From Sulfitobacter mediterraneus (lineage in GTDB: Bacteria > Pseudomonadota > Alphaproteobacteria > Rhodobacterales > Rhodobacteraceae), in contig NZ_CP069004.1 in NCBI RefSeq assembly GCF_016801775.1, forward strand, positions 1,488,001 through 1,552,000: DNA of 64,000 bases, in the 5' to 3' direction. The position numbers were made by a program, and so were the translations under genes. This document shows positions 51,824-62,657 of this stretch, piece by piece; position 1 is the first letter of the stretch, and each line of letters opens with the position of its first letter. Under the pieces are notes generated by a model. The model did no database searches and was not told where the DNA came from. It worked only from the letters and a program-made list of their open reading frames with translations.

Positions 51824-53770
51824 ATGGCTCAAATCTCTCTCACCCTTCCCGATGGCAATGCACGCAGCTACGACGCAGGTATCACTGCGGGCGAAGTGGC
51901 GGCCGATATTTCCAAATCCCTTGGTAAAAAAGCCATCAGCGCCACCGTGAACGGCGCACATTACGATCTGGCCTGGCCGATCGATGCTGATGCCGACATC
52001 GCCATCCACACCATGGCCGACGAAGAACAGGCCAATGAGCTGGTGCGCCACGACCTGGCCCATATCATGGCCCGCGCCGTGCAGGAGATCTGGCCTGACA
52101 CCAAAGTGACCATCGGCCCGGTGATCAAGGACGGCTGGTACTACGACTTTGACCGCAAAGACCCGTTTACCCCCGAAGACCTTGGCCTCATCGAAAAAAA
52201 GATGAAGGAAATCATCAATAAGCGCGATCCCGTCCGCACCGAGGTCTGGGACCGTGCCCGCGCGATCAAACACTACGAGGACAATGGCGAGCCCTATAAG
52301 GTTGAACTGATTGACGCCATTCCCGGCGATGAGCCATTGCGCATGTATTGGCATGGCGACTGGCAGGATCTGTGCCGGGGTCCGCATTTGCAGCATACCG
52401 GCCAGGTGCCGGGCGATGCCTTCAAGCTGATGTCGATTGCCGGGGCTTACTGGCGCGGCGACAGCGACCGTGCGATGCTGCAACGGATCTATGGCGTGGC
52501 CTTCACCGGCAAGGAAAAACTGCGCGCACATCTGAACATGCTTGAAGAGGCCGCCAAACGCGACCACCGCAAACTGGGCCGCGAGATGGATCTGTTCCAC
52601 ATGCAGGAAGAAGCCCCCGGACAGGTGTTCTGGCACGCCAACGGCTGGCAAATCTACACCGAACTGCAAGACTACATGCGCCGCCAGCAACGCAAAGGTG
52701 GCTACGTGGAGGTCAACACTCCGCAGGTCGTGGACCGTAAATTGTGGGAAGCCTCCGGTCACTGGGAAAAGTATCAGGAAAACATGTTCATCGTCGAAGT
52801 CGACGAAGAGCACGCCCGCGAAAAGGCGGTCAACGCCCTGAAACCGATGAACTGCCCCTGCCACGTGCAGATCTTTAACCAGGGTCTGAAATCCTATCGC
52901 GATTTGCCGCTGCGCATGGCCGAATTCGGCTCGTGCAACCGGTATGAGCCCTCTGGCGCCCTGCACGGTATCATGCGCGTGCGCGGCTTTACCCAAGATG
53001 ACGGGCATATTTTCTGCCGCGAGGACCAGATCGAGGCGGAAACCGCTGAGTTCATCACCTTCCTCAGCAACATCTACAAAGATCTGGGTTTCGAGAACTT
53101 CAGCGTGAAATTCTCCGACCGGCCAGAGACACGCTCCGGCTCGGACGAGGTTTGGGACAAGGCCGAAGAGGCGCTCTTGTCAGCCACACGTGCCGCCGGA
53201 ATCGAACCCGAACTGAACCCCGGCGAAGGCGCATTTTATGGCCCTAAGTTGGAGTTTGTCCTGACCGACGCGATTGGCCGCGATTGGCAATGCGGCACCC
53301 ATCAGGTTGATTTCGTCCTGCCCGAACGGCTGGATGCAACCTACGTGGGCGCCGATGGCGCCAAGCACCGCCCCGTAATGCTGCACCGGGCCACCCTGGG
53401 CAGTTTTGAGCGGTTCATCGGGATCCTGATCGAAGAGCACGCTGGCAAATTGCCCTTCTGGCTGGCCCCACGTCAGGTTGTTGTTGCCTCGATCACATCC
53501 GAGGCCGATGACTATGTGGTTGAAGTTGTTGAGACTCTCAAAGCCGCCGGTGTGCGGGCCGAGGCCGACATGCGTAACGAAAAAATCAACTACAAGGTCC
53601 GCGAACATTCAGTTGGCAAGGTGCCTGTGATTCTCGCCGTGGGTGGCCGCGAAGTGGAAGAAAAGACCGTGTCCGTCCGCCGTTTGGGCGAAAAACAAAC
53701 TTCGGTGCAACCCTTGGCCGATGTTGCCGCCGCCCTGAGCGTCGAGGCAACACCGCCCGATCTGCGATGA
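51824..53770 (+). CDS. thrS: Threonyl-tRNA synthetase
   Basis: A 648-residue class II synthetase with the full domain set: N-terminal TGS ([18 protein letters not shown]), editing domain with HDLAHIM and the Cys/His cluster, catalytic core ([10 protein letters not shown] zinc ligand; [26 protein letters not shown]) and a C-terminal anticodon-binding domain ([21 protein letters not shown]). It charges tRNA-Thr. An intrinsic terminator follows. Confidence 0.97.
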
Positions 53771-53794: not shown

Positions 53795-53823
53795 ACGGGG
53801 CCGTTTGCGCGGCCCCGTTTTTT
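53795..53823 (+). terminator. Intrinsic terminator of thrS
   Basis: Stem ACGGGGCCG (53795-53803) and CGGCCCCGT (53810-53818), a 6-base loop and a run of six T (53818-53823), 24 bp after the thrS stop. It isolates thrS from the bufferin operon. Confidence 0.9.
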
Positions 53824-53905
53824 GTGGGCCTGTAACAATTCACAGGTGCCAAAGGCCAAATTCGCAACAAATCTCCCAGATTTTCCGGCAAATCCTGACA
53901 GGATC

Positions 53906-53934
53906 GTGACACACTCCCTCGTGAGTGGTGTTAG
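53906..53934 (+). promoter_or_regulatory. Candidate promoter of the bufferin operon with a spacer dyad
   Basis: GTGACA (53906-53911) and TGTTAG (53929-53934) are spaced by 17 bp, a reasonable -35/-10 pair for housekeeping sigma. The spacer holds a small dyad, CACTC-N6-GAGTG (53912-53916 and 53923-53927), which could be a repressor or metal-sensor site. It lies 65 bp before bufA. Prediction by eye only. Confidence 0.4.
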
Positions 53935-53998
53935 ACTGGCCCGGATGGTTTACTCTTCACATCACCCGTTGATTTGAACACCAAAGGAAGTTTGAAAA

Positions 53999-54301
53999 AT
54001 GTCCAACACACTCAAATCCGTCGCGCTTGCAGGCGCTGTTGCCGCAGCGATGACCGCACAGACAACCACGGCCGAGGCGGCCTCCAAAGAGAAATGCTAT
54101 GGCGTGTCTTTGGCTGGTGAAAACGACTGCGCTGCCGGCCCGGGCACCACCTGCGCAGGTACATCCGTCACCGATTATCAAGGCAACGCCTGGACGTTGG
54201 TTGACGCCGGAACCTGCGAAAGCATCGATCTGCCAGCGATGGCAGACGGCTCTGAGCGCAAAGGCTCGCTTGAGGCACTCGACCGCGACCTGCCCGCGTA
54301 A
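53999..54301 (+). CDS. bufA1: Bufferin-type RiPP precursor (DUF2282, BufA1)
   Basis: A 100-residue DUF2282 protein with AAGGAAG ahead of its ATG. The signal peptide ([20 protein letters not shown]) targets the periplasm, unusual for a RiPP. The mature part holds four Cys (33, 44, 52, 73) in KCYG, NDCAAG, TTCAGT and GTCES, the BufA1 pattern. In characterised bufferins an MNIO enzyme converts Cys to 5-thiooxazole, and the product chelates copper in the periplasm. The next genes encode that enzyme and its partner. Modification here is inferred. Confidence 0.92.
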
Positions 54302-54365
54302 GAAATGCGTTCCGGGCGGCCCAGAGCGCGGCCCGGAACACCCTTGATCCACCGGAGGGCGCATC

Positions 54366-55214
54366 ATGCTCGACACGCGGTCCCGATTTGACCAGTTGCC
54401 CAACGCAGCCGGGATCGGATACAAACCCCAACATTTCCAAGAGCTTCTGGAAGATCCCGGCGCTGTTGAATGGGTTGAGGTTCATGCCGAAAACTATATG
54501 GGTGACGGCGGGCGACCCTTGGCCCAGTTGCAGGCGTTGTCCGAGACCTTTGCGATTTCCATCCATGGTGTAGGCCTGTCCATCGGGGGCCAACAGCCGC
54601 TTGATAAGGATCACCTAAATCGGCTCAAGCGCCTGTGTGATCGCATCAAACCCGCCAGCTTTTCGGAACATCTGGCATGGTCCACCCACGGTGCGGAGTT
54701 CATGAACGATCTGCTGCCCCTGCCCTATACAGCCGAAACTCTGACCCTCGTGAGTGACCATATCAATCAGGTTCAAGACACCTTGGGCCGTCAAATGCTG
54801 CTGGAAAACCCGTCCAGTTATCTGACGTTTGCTGAATCTACTTTTACAGAAACTGACTTTCTTTCTGCGGTTATCCACAAGACATCCTGTGGTCTATTGC
54901 TGGATGTGAACAACGTATTCATTTCATCCACAAACCTTGGGGTCAGCCCAGAAACCTACATTGATACCTATCCAACCGATCATGTGGGCGAGATCCATGT
55001 GGGTGGACATGATGAAGATCAGGATGATTTTGGTGCGCCGTTGTTGATCGATAGCCACGCCAAACCAGTCGTCGATCCGGTTTGGTCATTGCTCAGATAC
55101 ACGCTTGCACAAACCGCACCAAAACCGGTTTTAGTGGAATGGGACAACGATATACCGTCTTGGCCAACCCTTCGTGCCGAAGCAAACCGCGCCGCCATGG
55201 CCTTGGCCGGATGA
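54366..55214 (+). CDS. bufB: MNIO family enzyme BufB (DUF692), bufferin maturase
   Basis: A 282-residue TIM-barrel multinuclear non-haem iron oxygenase of the DUF692/MbnB family. Likely iron ligands are visible: E42 (HAENYM), H67 (SIHGVG), E101/H102 (SEHLAW), E147 (LENPS), D180 (LLLDVNN), H211/H215 (IHVGGH), D229/H231 (DSHAKP) and E258. CGGAGGG precedes the start. It should oxidise Cys of BufA1 to thiooxazole with O2. bufC overlaps its stop. Confidence 0.94.
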
Positions 55215-55954
55215 CCCGATCGGAGAGATTTCACGCGGGCCTCCTGGACCCAGCGCGCCCCGTGCCGGACGGTCTGATCGACGGTAAAAACCAACCGGCA
55301 GGCCGCAGATATGATGTCTATCGCAACAACGTGACCACCTCGCTTTGTGAGGCTCTATCAACGGCGTTCCCGCTGGTTCGCAAACTGATCGGCACGCAGA
55401 ATTTCAGCTCGCTCGCGCCGCTCTACGTCCGAAATCACCCCCCTAAATCGCCGCTCATGATGCATTATGGCGTTGATTTTCCTGAGTTTATCGAAAACTT
55501 CACGCCCCTTGCGCATATCGGGTATCTGGCCGATGCCGCACGGCTTGATCAGGCCATGCGCCGGTCCTACCACGCCGCCGACGCTCCGAATTTTGACGCG
55601 GCCAGGCTGCAAAACACTGCGCCGGATGCATTGCCTAGAATGAAGATCGGTCTTGCACCAGCCAGCCTGATCCTGCGCTCTGATTGGCCGCTCTATGACA
55701 TCTGGCGCTTCAATAACGAAGATGGCGCGCCCAAACCGCAGGCTATTGCACAGGATGTTCTGATCACCCGTCCAGAATTTGATCCACAGCCATGGCTCCT
55801 GCCTCCGGGGGCCGCGATCTGGCTGGAGAACCTGGCCCAAGGCCGGACATTTGGGGCTGCGCACGATCTGACCCTTGCGCAAATACCCGATTTTGATCTC
55901 GCCGCCGCCCTCACAACGGCCCTGTCATCCCGAGCCTTTAAAGAAACCCCGTAA
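55211..55954 (+). CDS. bufC: BufC (DUF2063) partner protein of the MNIO enzyme
   Basis: A 247-residue protein from the ATG at 55211, overlapping the bufB stop (ATGA). The N-terminal DUF2063 domain reads [30 protein letters not shown], followed by DFPEFIENF and a C-terminal mixed domain. It is the expected precursor-binding partner that presents the BufA leader to BufB, as MbnC does for MbnB. Annotation pipelines sometimes call it a putative DNA-binding protein. Confidence 0.9.
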
Positions 55955-55963
55955 GGAATTGAT

Positions 55964-56506
55964 ATGAAACCGCTTATATCCCTGCATGATGCAGTTTTCA
56001 CCAGACTCGAACAGGCCAACTGGTTGTTGCCAACGCTCGCAAGGTTCCTTTTTGCGGCGGTTCTGCTGGTCTACTTCCTCAATTCGGGTCTCACCAAAAT
56101 CGGCGATGGCCTGTCTGGCCTATGGACACCTTCCGTCGGTGCCTATGCGCAGATCTTCCCCCGTGTGCTCGAAGAAGCCGGCTATGACACTGATGCACTT
56201 GGTCTTTTTCATCGTTTGGTCGTGCTCGCAGGAACATGGGCAGAGTTCATTTTGCCAGCCCTTATCGTTGTTGGCTTGCTGACCCGCCTCGCCGCGCTGG
56301 GGATGATCGGTTTCATCGCTGTCCAATCGCTGACCGACATCTATGGCCATGGCCAAGACAGCGCGTTGGGCGCGTGGTTCGACCGTTTCCCGGATGCGGT
56401 CATCATGGACCAGAGGGCGTTGTGGGTTCTCTTGCTGCTGATCCTAGTGATCAAAGGCGCGGGGCCCTTGTCCTTTGACCGCGCATTCAAACGGCGCGTT
56501 ATTTGA
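55964..56506 (+). CDS. DoxX family membrane protein of the bufferin operon
   Basis: A 180-residue protein with four membrane segments (FLFAAVLLVYFLNSG, AEFILPALIVVGLLTRLAALGMIGFIAV, ALWVLLLLILVIKGAG). DoxX-like proteins commonly close bufferin operons, and the 9-bp gap to bufC supports co-transcription. Its role, perhaps redox or membrane assistance, is unproven. Confidence 0.88.
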   Translation: MKPLISLHDAVFTRLEQANWLLPTLARFLFAAVLLVYFLNSGLTKIGDGLSGLWTPSVGAYAQIFPRVLEEAGYDTDALGLFHRLVVLAGTWAEFILPALIVVGLLTRLAALGMIGFIAVQSLTDIYGHGQDSALGAWFDRFPDAVIMDQRALWVLLLLILVIKGAGPLSFDRAFKRRVI

Positions 56507-56551: not shown

Positions 56552-56872
56552 TTAAGAAAGTGCTTTAATTTCCTTCTCTATATCACTGTTCCAAGATAGA
56601 AAAAGCGTGTTATCCACAGCAATCAACGGCCGCTTCATCAAAGCGGGATGGGCTTTGATCAATGTCAGAGGATCGGCCTGCCGCTCTACCTCGCTCAGCC
56701 CTCTCCAAGTGGTGGACCGTGTATTCAATAGCGCGCCACCGAACTGTTGATGTGCCGCCAACAACACCTCTTCAGGAACGCCATCAACGCGCACATCAAC
56801 GAGCGTAGCATCAGGCAGTGCCTTCATCGCCTTCCTGCAGGTATCGCAATTCTTAAGACCATAAATTTGCAT
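56552..56872 (-). CDS. ArsC/Spx-family thioredoxin-fold protein (YffB-like)
   Basis: A 106-residue protein from the ATG at 56872, with GAGGG six bases upstream; the previous ATG at 56875 is an alternative. It starts MQIYGLKNCDTCRKAMKAL, the ArsC/YffB motif with an extra second Cys (CxxC). The conserved Arg in MKRPLIAVD follows. It resembles glutathione-dependent thiol reductases more than true arsenate reductases, and no ars genes are near. It is convergent with the bufferin operon. Confidence 0.85.
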   Translation of the reverse strand: MQIYGLKNCDTCRKAMKALPDATLVDVRVDGVPEEVLLAAHQQFGGALLNTRSTTWRGLSEVERQADPLTLIKAHPALMKRPLIAVDNTLFLSWNSDIEKEIKALS

Positions 56873-57048
56873 CATTTTCCCTCTTCTTTTGGCGCTTGAT
56901 CTGAAATTTGAACAAAATTTTTCGCGATTTACTTGATTTTTCTCCCGATTGCGCAATCCTTTCTACTGTAGGGCGCGCCGGAATGGTTTGGCATAGGCCC
57001 TATCCTGTTTCGGCAGGCCTATGAAAGACTAAAGGAGGCGCGGATATT

Positions 57049-57255
57049 ATGCCGAATGGCACCGTGAAATGGTTTAACACCACCAAGGGTTACGGATTTA
57101 TCGCACCAGAAGGTGGCGGCAATGATGTATTTGTACATATCTCAGCGGTCGAACGCTCTGGCCTGACGGGCCTTGCGGATGACCAGAAAGTCAGTTTCGA
57201 ACTTTCCGAAGGCCGCGACGGCCGCCAGATGGCGTCTGACATCACCCTGTTATAA
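57049..57255 (+). CDS. Cold-shock protein (CspA family)
   Basis: A 68-residue cold-shock domain with RNP1 (KGYGFIAPEG) and RNP2 (VFVHIS) and the start MPNGTVKWFNTTKG. It binds single-stranded RNA as a chaperone. AAGGAGG lies upstream of the ATG, and the ~90-bp region before it may be the long 5' leader typical of csp mRNAs. Confidence 0.95.
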   Translation: MPNGTVKWFNTTKGYGFIAPEGGGNDVFVHISAVERSGLTGLADDQKVSFELSEGRDGRQMASDITLL

Positions 57256-60230: not shown

Positions 60231-61262
60231 ATGAAAATCAATGCAGCGGGGCTCTTGCTCTGTACGTTTCTTGTTGGATGTGGCGGCACACCTCCCTTCA
60301 ATGCGGATGAGACAGAAGATCCGACAACAACAGACGGTACGATCGACAGCGATCGCACCCTGCCCCCCGGTACCTCATCACCGCAGCCCGACACCACGAT
60401 TTTCCGCAAAGAAGCGGTCGACGAGAACGGCAATGGCTTTGCCGAGGGCGTGGCCTATAATTCTACGGACGACACTTTTACCGTCGACAATCTCCCGTTT
60501 GATGGCGGCGCAGACACACCATATATCCGCGGCCAAGCGGTCGGCAGCCTCGGACCATATGCGGTTTATGAGGCGGTGCAACAATATCCAGACACACAGA
60601 CCAACGCGACCATCAACCAATTCCGACACCGCGCCATTTACGGCGTCAGCACCAGCGGCAACACCGAATTTGCCATCGTGCGCACCGGCGCCTACGTCGG
60701 CTATGGCTTTGGCGGCTTTGTTTATGAGCGCAACGGAACGGTGGTCCTGCCCACCACCGGCCAGGCGCTTTACAACGGTCAGGGGGCGGGTCTGCGAGAC
60801 TACAACGGGCGCGGCGGGTTGGAATACACCACGTCGGACGTGCAGATCGCCATCGACTTTGATGACTTCAACGAAACCACAGGCCGCTACGAAGGGGCAG
60901 TGGATGGATTTGTGTTCAACCGCAAGGTCTACAATCTTGCCGGCGAGGATATCACCAGCGAAATCTATGGCCGCGTCGGAGCTGCAAGCGATGCGACCCT
61001 CACCGCGATTCCGACAGCTGTCTTCACCGTTTCGACCAACGCGCTCGATGCCAATGGCGAGATAACCGGCACGCTCACATCCCGCTTTGGCAACAACAGC
61101 GGCCAGGCTGTCGATTATGAGAACGGCCAATACTACGGGATCATCTCGGGCGACGGAGCCGAGGAAATCGTGGGGATTATTGTCCTGGAAACAGGCGAAG
61201 ATCCAACCGCAGACGGTGTCCGCGAGACCCTTGGTTTCACGATCTATCGCGGAAATCAGTAA
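60231..61262 (+). CDS. Surface-lipoprotein candidate with TbpB-like beta-barrel (Slam substrate)
   Basis: A 343-residue protein with a lipobox (LVGC, Cys17) followed by an acidic/Thr-rich linker ([14 protein letters not shown]). The rest is beta-strand rich: [32 protein letters not shown] and [22 protein letters not shown], the look of TbpB-type barrel domains. The stop is immediately followed by the Slam start (no gap). This suggests an outer-membrane lipoprotein moved to the cell surface by Slam. Ligand unknown. Confidence 0.82.
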
Positions 61263-62657
61263 ATGCCCAAGCGGCGCCCCTTTTACAGGAGCGCGGCCAT
61301 CCTCGGGATCTTGGCCTGTCTGACGGGCCTGCCCGTGGCTGCGCAAACCACATTGGACGCCCCTGCCATGCGGCAGGCGGCAACCGAAGCCTTACGTGCC
61401 GGAGATGCGCAGCGGGCCAGAGTCTATGCTGAGGCGTTGCTGACCCGCGATGCCAATGATCTGAACGCCCATTTGATCCATGCCCGCGCGCTGCGCGATT
61501 TGGGCCGGACCGCCCCTGCCCGCACCGCCGCGCGGCGTGCGTGGCAATTGGCACAAACAGACGCGGAAAAATACTCGGCCGCTCTGATCACCGCTCAGGT
61601 ATTGTCTACAGCCGGACAGCGCACCCGTGCCCAGCTTTGGCTGCGCCGCGCGGCGGAACATGCGCCCAATGATCTGCTCCGCGCCCGCGCCGAACGTGAC
61701 TTCAAATATGTAAGAACCCGCAATCCCTGGCACACCAGCCTCAGCTTCACCTTGGCCCCGAATTCCAACATCAACAACGGCAGTGCCCAGGACCGGTCCG
61801 AGCTGAACTATGCCATCAGCGAAATCCTGTTCGGCCAGCCCATCGAATACAATCTCACTGGCAGTGCCCGCGCCCTCAGCGGGCTGGAGGTCGGTGGCAG
61901 CATGCGCACACGCTACAGGTTTCACCAAACGCCGGTCACTGCGCATGACGTCAAGATCGGCCTGTCCTATCGCACCTTTGCCCTGTCGGGCAGCGCCCAG
62001 AACACCGCGCCCGACGCATCCGGCTCTGACTTTGCCTTCGGAACGGCAACGCTCGGCTATGGGTTCAAGCGCATCAACTTTGAACGCAAGGGCGAATTTA
62101 CCTTTGACGGCGAGCTGGGCCAATCCTGGTATGGCGGATCACGTTACGCCAGCTATTTGCGCGGCGCGGCCTTTCAGGCCTACAGCCCCAGCCGCACAAA
62201 AAGATACCGCTTTGGCGTTGATGTTGAACGACAATTCGGCCAAGCCACGCCGGACGTTGACAGCCTTGCCCTGCGGGGCAGCCTGACCCAGCGGCTCAAA
62301 TCCGGCGATACGCTTTATCTTGGGCTGAGCGCGGAAACCACGCATTCCGTCGAAAAGGATGCCGAATACAGTGAGGTTGAGCTGCGCTCAGGCTATGTCA
62401 TGCGCAAGCCAATCATGGGGGCGGACGTGCAATTTGGCCTTGGTGCCGCCTATCGCGATTATGACGTGTCCCGACATTCGGCGGATGGCCGACAGGATCG
62501 CAAGATTTTTGCTGATGTCACCGCAACCTTCCGGCAGATCGACTATTACGGATTTAACCCCTCCGTGACCCTCAGCGCGTCAAAAACCGACAGCAACATT
62601 GGCCTTTATGATGTGAACCGCATCGGGCTCAGCATCGGGATCAAATCCGCTTTCTAA
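61263..62657 (+). CDS. Slam-type surface lipoprotein assembly modifier (DUF560)
   Basis: A 464-residue outer-membrane protein. Signal peptide (SAAILGILACLTGLPVAAQ), TPR-like repeats around residues 33-150 (AMRQAATEALRAGDAQRARV..., LNAHLIHARALRDLG), then a beta-barrel from about residue 155 opening with NPWHTSLSFTLAPNSNINNG, the DUF560 hallmark, and ending with a terminal Phe (IGIKSAF). Slam proteins display lipoproteins on the surface. The ATG directly abuts the lipoprotein TAA, so expression is tightly coupled. Confidence 0.88.
   Translation: MPKRRPFYRSAAILGILACLTGLPVAAQTTLDAPAMRQAATEALRAGDAQRARVYAEALLTRDANDLNAHLIHARALRDLGRTAPARTAARRAWQLAQTDAEKYSAALITAQVLSTAGQRTRAQLWLRRAAEHAPNDLLRARAERDFKYVRTRNPWHTSLSFTLAPNSNINNGSAQDRSELNYAISEILFGQPIEYNLTGSARALSGLEVGGSMRTRYRFHQTPVTAHDVKIGLSYRTFALSGSAQNTAPDASGSDFAFGTATLGYGFKRINFERKGEFTFDGELGQSWYGGSRYASYLRGAAFQAYSPSRTKRYRFGVDVERQFGQATPDVDSLALRGSLTQRLKSGDTLYLGLSAETTHSVEKDAEYSEVELRSGYVMRKPIMGADVQFGLGAAYRDYDVSRHSADGRQDRKIFADVTATFRQIDYYGFNPSVTLSASKTDSNIGLYDVNRIGLSIGIKSAF

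Follow-up and report, generated by a model that had tools for sequence, protein, structure and literature searches.

The locus at 53999–56506 of the window (the whole stretch of Sulfitobacter DNA analysed here, 64,000 nucleotides) raises two questions: which peptide system its genes encode, and what controls that system.

The operon and its predicted product

The locus consists of four plus-strand genes with tight spacing, in the order bufA-bufB-bufC-doxX (Table 1). bufB and bufC share four bases, the bufC ATG overlapping the bufB stop (ATGA); a mechanical list of open reading frames gives an earlier bufC start, at 55082. An earlier note on this DNA had read a complete Buf1 bufferin operon here (DUF2282 precursor, MNIO, DUF2063 partner and DoxX) and had proposed profile searches for DUF2282, the DUF692-type MNIO and DUF2063; order, spacing and family assignments all bore it out, as every product passed its Pfam cut-off, namely BufA (DUF2282, 1.6e-23, 82.9 bits against a cut-off of 22.4), BufB (MbnB_TglH_ChrH, 6.7e-104), BufC (DUF2063, 3.6e-23) and the doxX product (DoxX, 3.4e-6). 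BufB also passed the NCBIfam model 'MNIO family bufferin maturase' (NF050167; 371.3 bits, cut-off 310), and BufA, BufC and DoxX had no NCBIfam match above cut-off. DUF2282 and MNIO were each matched once in the whole genome, and a sequence search of the PDB with BufA and BufC found no relatives. Judged from its sequence, the locus is a Buf1 bufferin (captophorin) operon, a standard example of a type that thousands of bacteria are known to have.

Table 1. Features of the bufferin locus and its upstream region, in window coordinates.
Feature	Position	Strand	Description and basis
thrS	51824..53770	+	conserved upstream neighbour, context only; Pfam scan and 78/80 loci
hairpin plus T run past thrS, terminator-like	53795..53818	+	parts bufA from thrS; terminator scan
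box 1, TGAC-N6-GTGA	53896..53909	+	T, AC and GT positions in 100 % of 73 core loci
box 2, ACAC-N6-GTGA	53911..53924	+	offset from box 1 by 15 bp; conserved GTGG flank up to 53928
−10-like element TTTACT, weak, tentative	53949..53954	+	weak conservation; 25 bases past box 2
bufA	53999..54301	+	Buf1 precursor, 100 aa, signal-peptide-like N-terminus, Cys 33, 44, 52, 73
bufB	54366..55214	+	MNIO bufferin maturase, 282 aa
bufC	55211..55954	+	DUF2063 partner protein, 247 aa, RRE-like C-terminal half (PME-type 1)
doxX	55964..56506	+	DoxX-family membrane protein, 180 aa

Other assignments were rejected. For a Buf2 type, the BufA2 model reached 18.6 bits (cut-off 60) and BufA has four cysteines, not six or twelve; for methanobactin, the MbnB model reached 56.2 bits (cut-off 325); and for Buf_EGKCG/oxazolin, BufA has no EGKCG repeat and the HvfB and HvfC models reached 242.5 bits (cut-off 360) and 32.2 bits (cut-off 142), respectively.

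The Caulobacter vibrioides bufferin 1 operon (CC3254–CC3257) has the same four components in the same order. Fontiphorin, oxazolin and gonophorin are captophorins that likewise combine an MNIO and a PME1 partner with a Sec-exported cysteine precursor and expected 5-thiooxazoles, but they have EGKCG repeats, whereas the Sulfitobacter BufA is of the four-cysteine DUF2282 type (PMC13097082). The gig operons of Cupriavidus and Legionella are of the same operon kind and are induced there by copper and gold (PMC10304878, PMC5413113). In Cupriavidus, gig is divergent from the ECF sigma gene rpoQ, and in Legionella it lies on a mobile element; the Sulfitobacter operon, unlike gig, is chromosomal, adjoins thrS and has no regulator close by.

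Of 295 genomes sampled from the family Rhodobacteraceae, 211 have DUF2282, and the name 'BufA1 family periplasmic bufferin-type metallophore' is already in use for Sulfitobacter homologues, so that the rarity implied by the earlier note was too strong. Identity to S. mediterraneus was 92 % for BufB, 99 % for ThrS and 100 % for CspA. Across 80 named loci, some on contigs that end early, we counted thrS in 78 (one of the two loci without it is a contig beginning at bufB), bufA in 79, bufC and doxX in 78 each, an ArsC-like gene in 76 and cspA in 71. A mobile metal island was rejected, since thrS adjoins the operon in 78 of the 80 loci, and from this gene context the operon reads as an old chromosomal one, kept by descent. 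The earlier remark that the window holds no copper efflux gene is consistent with our scans, in which none of six genomic Cu-ATPase matches fell in the window; the Pfam scans covered 29 window ORFs (9 + 10 + 10), a part of all its ORFs.

Some features of the surroundings are recorded here as separate observations. The ArsC/Spx-like and cold-shock genes counted above lie downstream of the operon, at 56552–57252 of the window. Loci in several genera carry a small hydrophobic protein of ~120 aa (MRNAALxLGIIxGxxGMxVGFF...) beside the bufferin operon, either between doxX and the ArsC-like gene (L044, L054, L058, L063, L065, L076 and L081) or between thrS and bufA (L080); in this window it is absent from that place. 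Further downstream, a Slam-like gene (61263–62657; SlipAM, 3.9e-10) directly follows a lipoprotein-like ORF without a Pfam match (60231–61262), and 60231–62657 is possibly a surface-lipoprotein pair.

In an alignment of 81 BufB sequences, H67, H102, E147, D180 and N183 are present in all 81, and H211, D229, H231 and E258 in 80; these conserved His, Asp, Glu and Asn residues line up with identical ones in 3bww and, by the work on MbnB and TglH, are presumably those that hold the irons. A predicted model of BufC (pLDDT 93.0, pTM 0.88) matched only 8hci, 8hi7 and 3dee (NGO1945) in the PDB with E < 0.001; the first two are TglHI complexes, whose matched chain we read as the MNIO partner from its length. 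Together with the DUF2063 match, the model assigns BufC as a PME-type 1 partner (DUF2063 plus an RRE-type domain).

BufA contains exactly four cysteines, as previously claimed, and all are kept in 80 of 80 aligned BufA sequences. By eye, its N-terminus (Lys, a hydrophobic stretch, AEA-A), conserved across the alignment, is signal-like. Bufferins have been counted among the 5-thiooxazole captophorins, together with oxazolin and fontiphorin (PMC13097082), and in the characterised Buf1, which binds copper and helps growth in copper excess, the central cysteines are modified while a disulphide links the outer two (PMC12452194). Thiooxazoles on all four cysteines, as the earlier note had predicted, were therefore too strong a claim, and alignment with the published pattern gives C44 and C52 as the predicted modified pair. 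By analogy, we infer the following route: BufA would be synthesised with a Sec signal peptide, a BufB–BufC complex in the cytoplasm would convert C44 and C52 into 5-thiooxazoles, the peptide would be exported and closed by a C33–C73 disulphide, and mature BufA would sequester periplasmic copper, with DoxX as a putative membrane helper.

BufA ends in RDLPA or a similar sequence (window 54281–54298; R96 in 80/80, D97 in 79/80 and P99 in 80/80). This ending is missing from the TPxGxGSLEP-type Buf1 of several genomes with NrsF (see below) and present in other NrsF genomes; a partner-recognition tail is one possible role.

Two palindromes before bufA

The control region is the least expected part of the locus. 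When the region upstream of bufA in the window was aligned with those of 79 further loci, a nearly completely conserved block stood out ~75–105 bp before the start codon, within diverged surroundings; this block consists of two palindromes of the form TNAC-N6-GTNA, 15 bp apart (53896–53924 here). The strict tandem form was present in 65 of 80 bufA regions, the core AC-N6-GT occurred twice in 73 and at least one box was found in 78, compared with maxima of 0, 2 and 8, respectively, in 100 rounds of dinucleotide shuffling. Both spacings are exact: T-N-AC-N6-GTGA occurred in 75 of 80 regions and the remaining spacers in 0 to 6, apart from spacer 10 (37 regions), which we read as the overlap of two boxes, and the box-to-box offset was 15 in 65 loci, the next commonest being found in 3. 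Upstream of the other genes around these loci, the core occurred in 0 to 2 regions per gene, with the exception of 16 of 78 before bufC, where the region is bufB coding sequence.

A looser form of the pattern had one match in this genome, at bufA (control, 2), and a tandem score search of 13 stretches around Cu-ATPase and response-regulator genes, together with the window, returned the bufA site only. In 30 further loci, a score-based search found the box in 12, on the gene strand in 11; at least two repeat training-set sequences, so that this set is only partly out of sample. A sigma-70 scan upstream of bufA gave no promoter-like site, and the hairpin after thrS is weak evidence alone, since 3 kb held four terminator-like sites against 3.1 expected from shuffles. 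From this pattern of conservation, we propose with fair confidence that the tandem box is the operator of bufA.

Variants of the arrangement exist. Two loci have a duplicate bufA, and the tandem box precedes each copy in one (L076, 8838 and 9638) and the first copy only in the other (L070, 9321 and 9673). A further locus (L145, G063:C9:5703 and 6219) has one box upstream of bufA and a second between that gene and bufB.

A literature search, with most subscription papers outside its reach, found no description of the tandem box or of the link between bufA and msrA set out below, and against the literature searched the bufA control region looks like a new, conserved variant.

Box or sigmaF/NrsF across the family

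Caulobacter places its bufferin operon under sigF-nrsF control with the motif GTAACC-N16-CGAA, whereas this Sulfitobacter genome has the tandem palindrome instead and gave no match in an NrsF profile search. The exact sigmaF consensus (GTAACC-N16-CGAA; PMC3511200), with N15–17 allowed, was found in 0 of 80 upstream regions, the window included; given this and the lack of NrsF in the genome, sigmaF control was rejected here. A loose form, GTAAC-N15..18-CG(A/T), occurs in 15 of 80 regions, including this window, at scattered positions such as the thrS terminator, so that the loose form alone proves little.

We then compared both systems across the 295 family genomes. A strict box pattern, TNACNNNNNNGTGNNNNACNNNNNNGTGANT, gave 112 matches in 106 of the 295, against 4 for the reversed control pattern. 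In 150 genomes, matches could be joined with DUF2282 positions: 73 of the 112 fall in these (39 were unjoined), of which 66 lie 155–201 bp ahead of the DUF2282 domain, 64 of them on the same strand as the domain, and the other 7 elsewhere. Of the 295 genomes, 40 had an NrsF match above cut-off, and 45 had one at E 0.001. Under strict tests, the 150 joinable genomes divided into 64 with the box alone, 25 with NrsF alone, 1 with both and 60 with neither, a near-exclusivity with a Fisher p of 1.8e-6, uncorrected for kinship of the genomes. Of 30 loci read directly, 16 had NrsF, and a sigmaF-like GTAAC...CG(A/T) site preceded bufA in 15 of these, at a steady distance, and the box in 0; the 14 loci without NrsF had the sigmaF-like site in 0, the box in 11 and neither in 3. 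Judging from this split, the family appears to place bufA under one of two control systems, the box or sigmaF/NrsF, with a remainder that neither explains.

A probable second target and candidate regulators

Three tandem matches away from bufA (in genomes G286, G091 and G274) precede an exported msrA. Among 48 msrA upstream regions, a non-random sample made up of high-scoring relatives of one exported MsrA, TCAC-N6-GTGA was present in 39, this genome included, and in 36 of 45 when those three genomes were left out; shuffles gave a mean of 0.2 and a maximum of 2, spacers of 2–5, 7, 8 and 10–12 gave 0 and a spacer of 9 gave 1. At msrA, most regions have just one box: a pair 16 bp apart occurs in 9 of 48, and the tandem box scored above 15 in just 4 of 50, all from the three genomes picked beforehand for having it. 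In this genome, the box lies at G000:C1:2702270–2702283, 84 bp upstream of the aligned start of an MsrA that has a signal-like N-terminus (PMSR, 1.8e-55). Genome-wide, the single-box pattern TCACSNNNNYGTGA gave 42 matches against 28 control in all over four genomes, and in this genome it was not enriched (9 matches, 10 control). msrA alone recurs as an upstream site among the further TCACSNNNNYGTGA targets of the four genomes; a recurrent match before ctpA sits, in our reading, within coding sequence, like several others.

The shared box suggests one regulator common to bufA and msrA, with copper or an oxidant as the signal. Transcription of bufA would be set by a probably dimeric regulator on the two tandem TNAC-N6-GTNA palindromes, not by sigmaF/NrsF; via one or two boxes, the same regulator would probably also control MsrA, an exported methionine sulfoxide reductase, and copper buffering would thereby be paired with repair of oxidised periplasmic proteins. 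We consider it rather likely that this Buf1 operon is served by a box-binding regulator in place of sigmaF/NrsF, which probably also serves msrA, and we lean equally towards the wider reading that an undescribed regulator of the Roseobacter group, with a near-dedicated tandem operator, couples copper buffering to MsrA methionine repair, replacing sigmaF/NrsF.

Elsewhere, such a pairing is reached by other means. The Caulobacter sigmaF regulon includes the bufferin operons and a periplasmic Met-sulfoxide enzyme, YedY (PMC3511200), and the E. coli CusSR/HprSR regulon, with a TNAC-N6-GTNA box as here, joins copper handling (Cus) and periplasmic Met-sulfoxide repair (MsrPQ; PMC9302797, PMC8249747), with CusSR inducing msrPQ under copper via a TTAC-N6-GTAA box (PMC9302797). 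The Sulfitobacter case differs from that of E. coli in its targets, bufferin and MsrA, in the doubling of the box at bufA and in having no CusR/CusS-type protein above cut-off. The control region makes testable what bufferins answer to in a large group of marine bacteria, most of which lack NrsF; the box common to bufA and exported msrA predicts a single response that covers both the buffering of copper (or oxidant) and the repair of methionine sulfoxide, and the 34-bp bufA box could serve as bait for the missing regulator.

Which protein reads the box is a narrower matter. It may be a diverged CopR/CusR/HprR-like response regulator of the OmpR family, working with a periplasmic sensor kinase for copper or HOCl/H2O2 on the same operon, a tentative identification that we rate somewhat below even chances. 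The box geometry equals that of the P. aeruginosa CopR box CTGACAn5GTAAT and the CusR box TGACAAnnTTGTCA (PMC11195947) and of the box CATTACAAAATTGTAATG shared by E. coli CusR and HprR (PMC9302797), a broader model finds CusRS-family matches in Roseobacter and Ruegeria (PMC10141476), and several unassigned OmpR-family regulators are present in this genome. However, tested as a CopR/CusR/HprR regulon, the operon has the TNAC-N6-GTNA box before it, but in this genome neither a CopR-type regulator (best 181.8 bits against 279.2, with 35 weak matches) nor a partner kinase (best 145.9 bits against 292.55) exceeded the curated cut-off; the best CopR-model match reads, from its neighbours, as PhoB. 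No regulator gene was seen next to bufA or with a box of its own, and unrelated regulator families share short palindromes.

The reader may instead come from another family, such as MarR, TetR or ArsR, and might be a repressor that responds to oxidants rather than copper. We find this slightly more doubtful, although perfect two-fold symmetry and two overlapping sites would suit dimeric repressors too, a palindrome gives no orientation and msrA is an oxidant-repair gene; the combination of copper handling with periplasmic Met-sulfoxide repair, against this, is known for CusSR/HprSR and sigmaF. It is improbable that the operon serves mainly another metal or an oxidant (gold, mercury or HOCl): gig bufferin operons do respond to gold as well as copper (PMC5413113, PMC10304878) and MerC-bufferin fusions exist (PMC12452194), but the copper phenotype of the characterised Buf1 points the other way (PMC12452194). 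Least likely of all is a promoter with chance palindromes and no operator, for which one could cite that the pattern was found after looking, that the genomes are related and that the promoter scan was negative, and against which stand the excess over control in the 295 genomes, the exact 6-base spacer and 15-base offset, the independent recurrence at msrA and the near-absence before neighbouring genes.

One further box deserves mention beside the bufA and msrA sites. As a single case at background frequency, it is only a lead: in this genome, contig C2 (152.8 kb) carries TCAC-N6-GTGA ~106 bp upstream of a SCO1/SenC gene (L253 1601–2309; G000:C2:25100 onwards), where a cation efflux gene adjoins and Cu-ATPase matches lie near.
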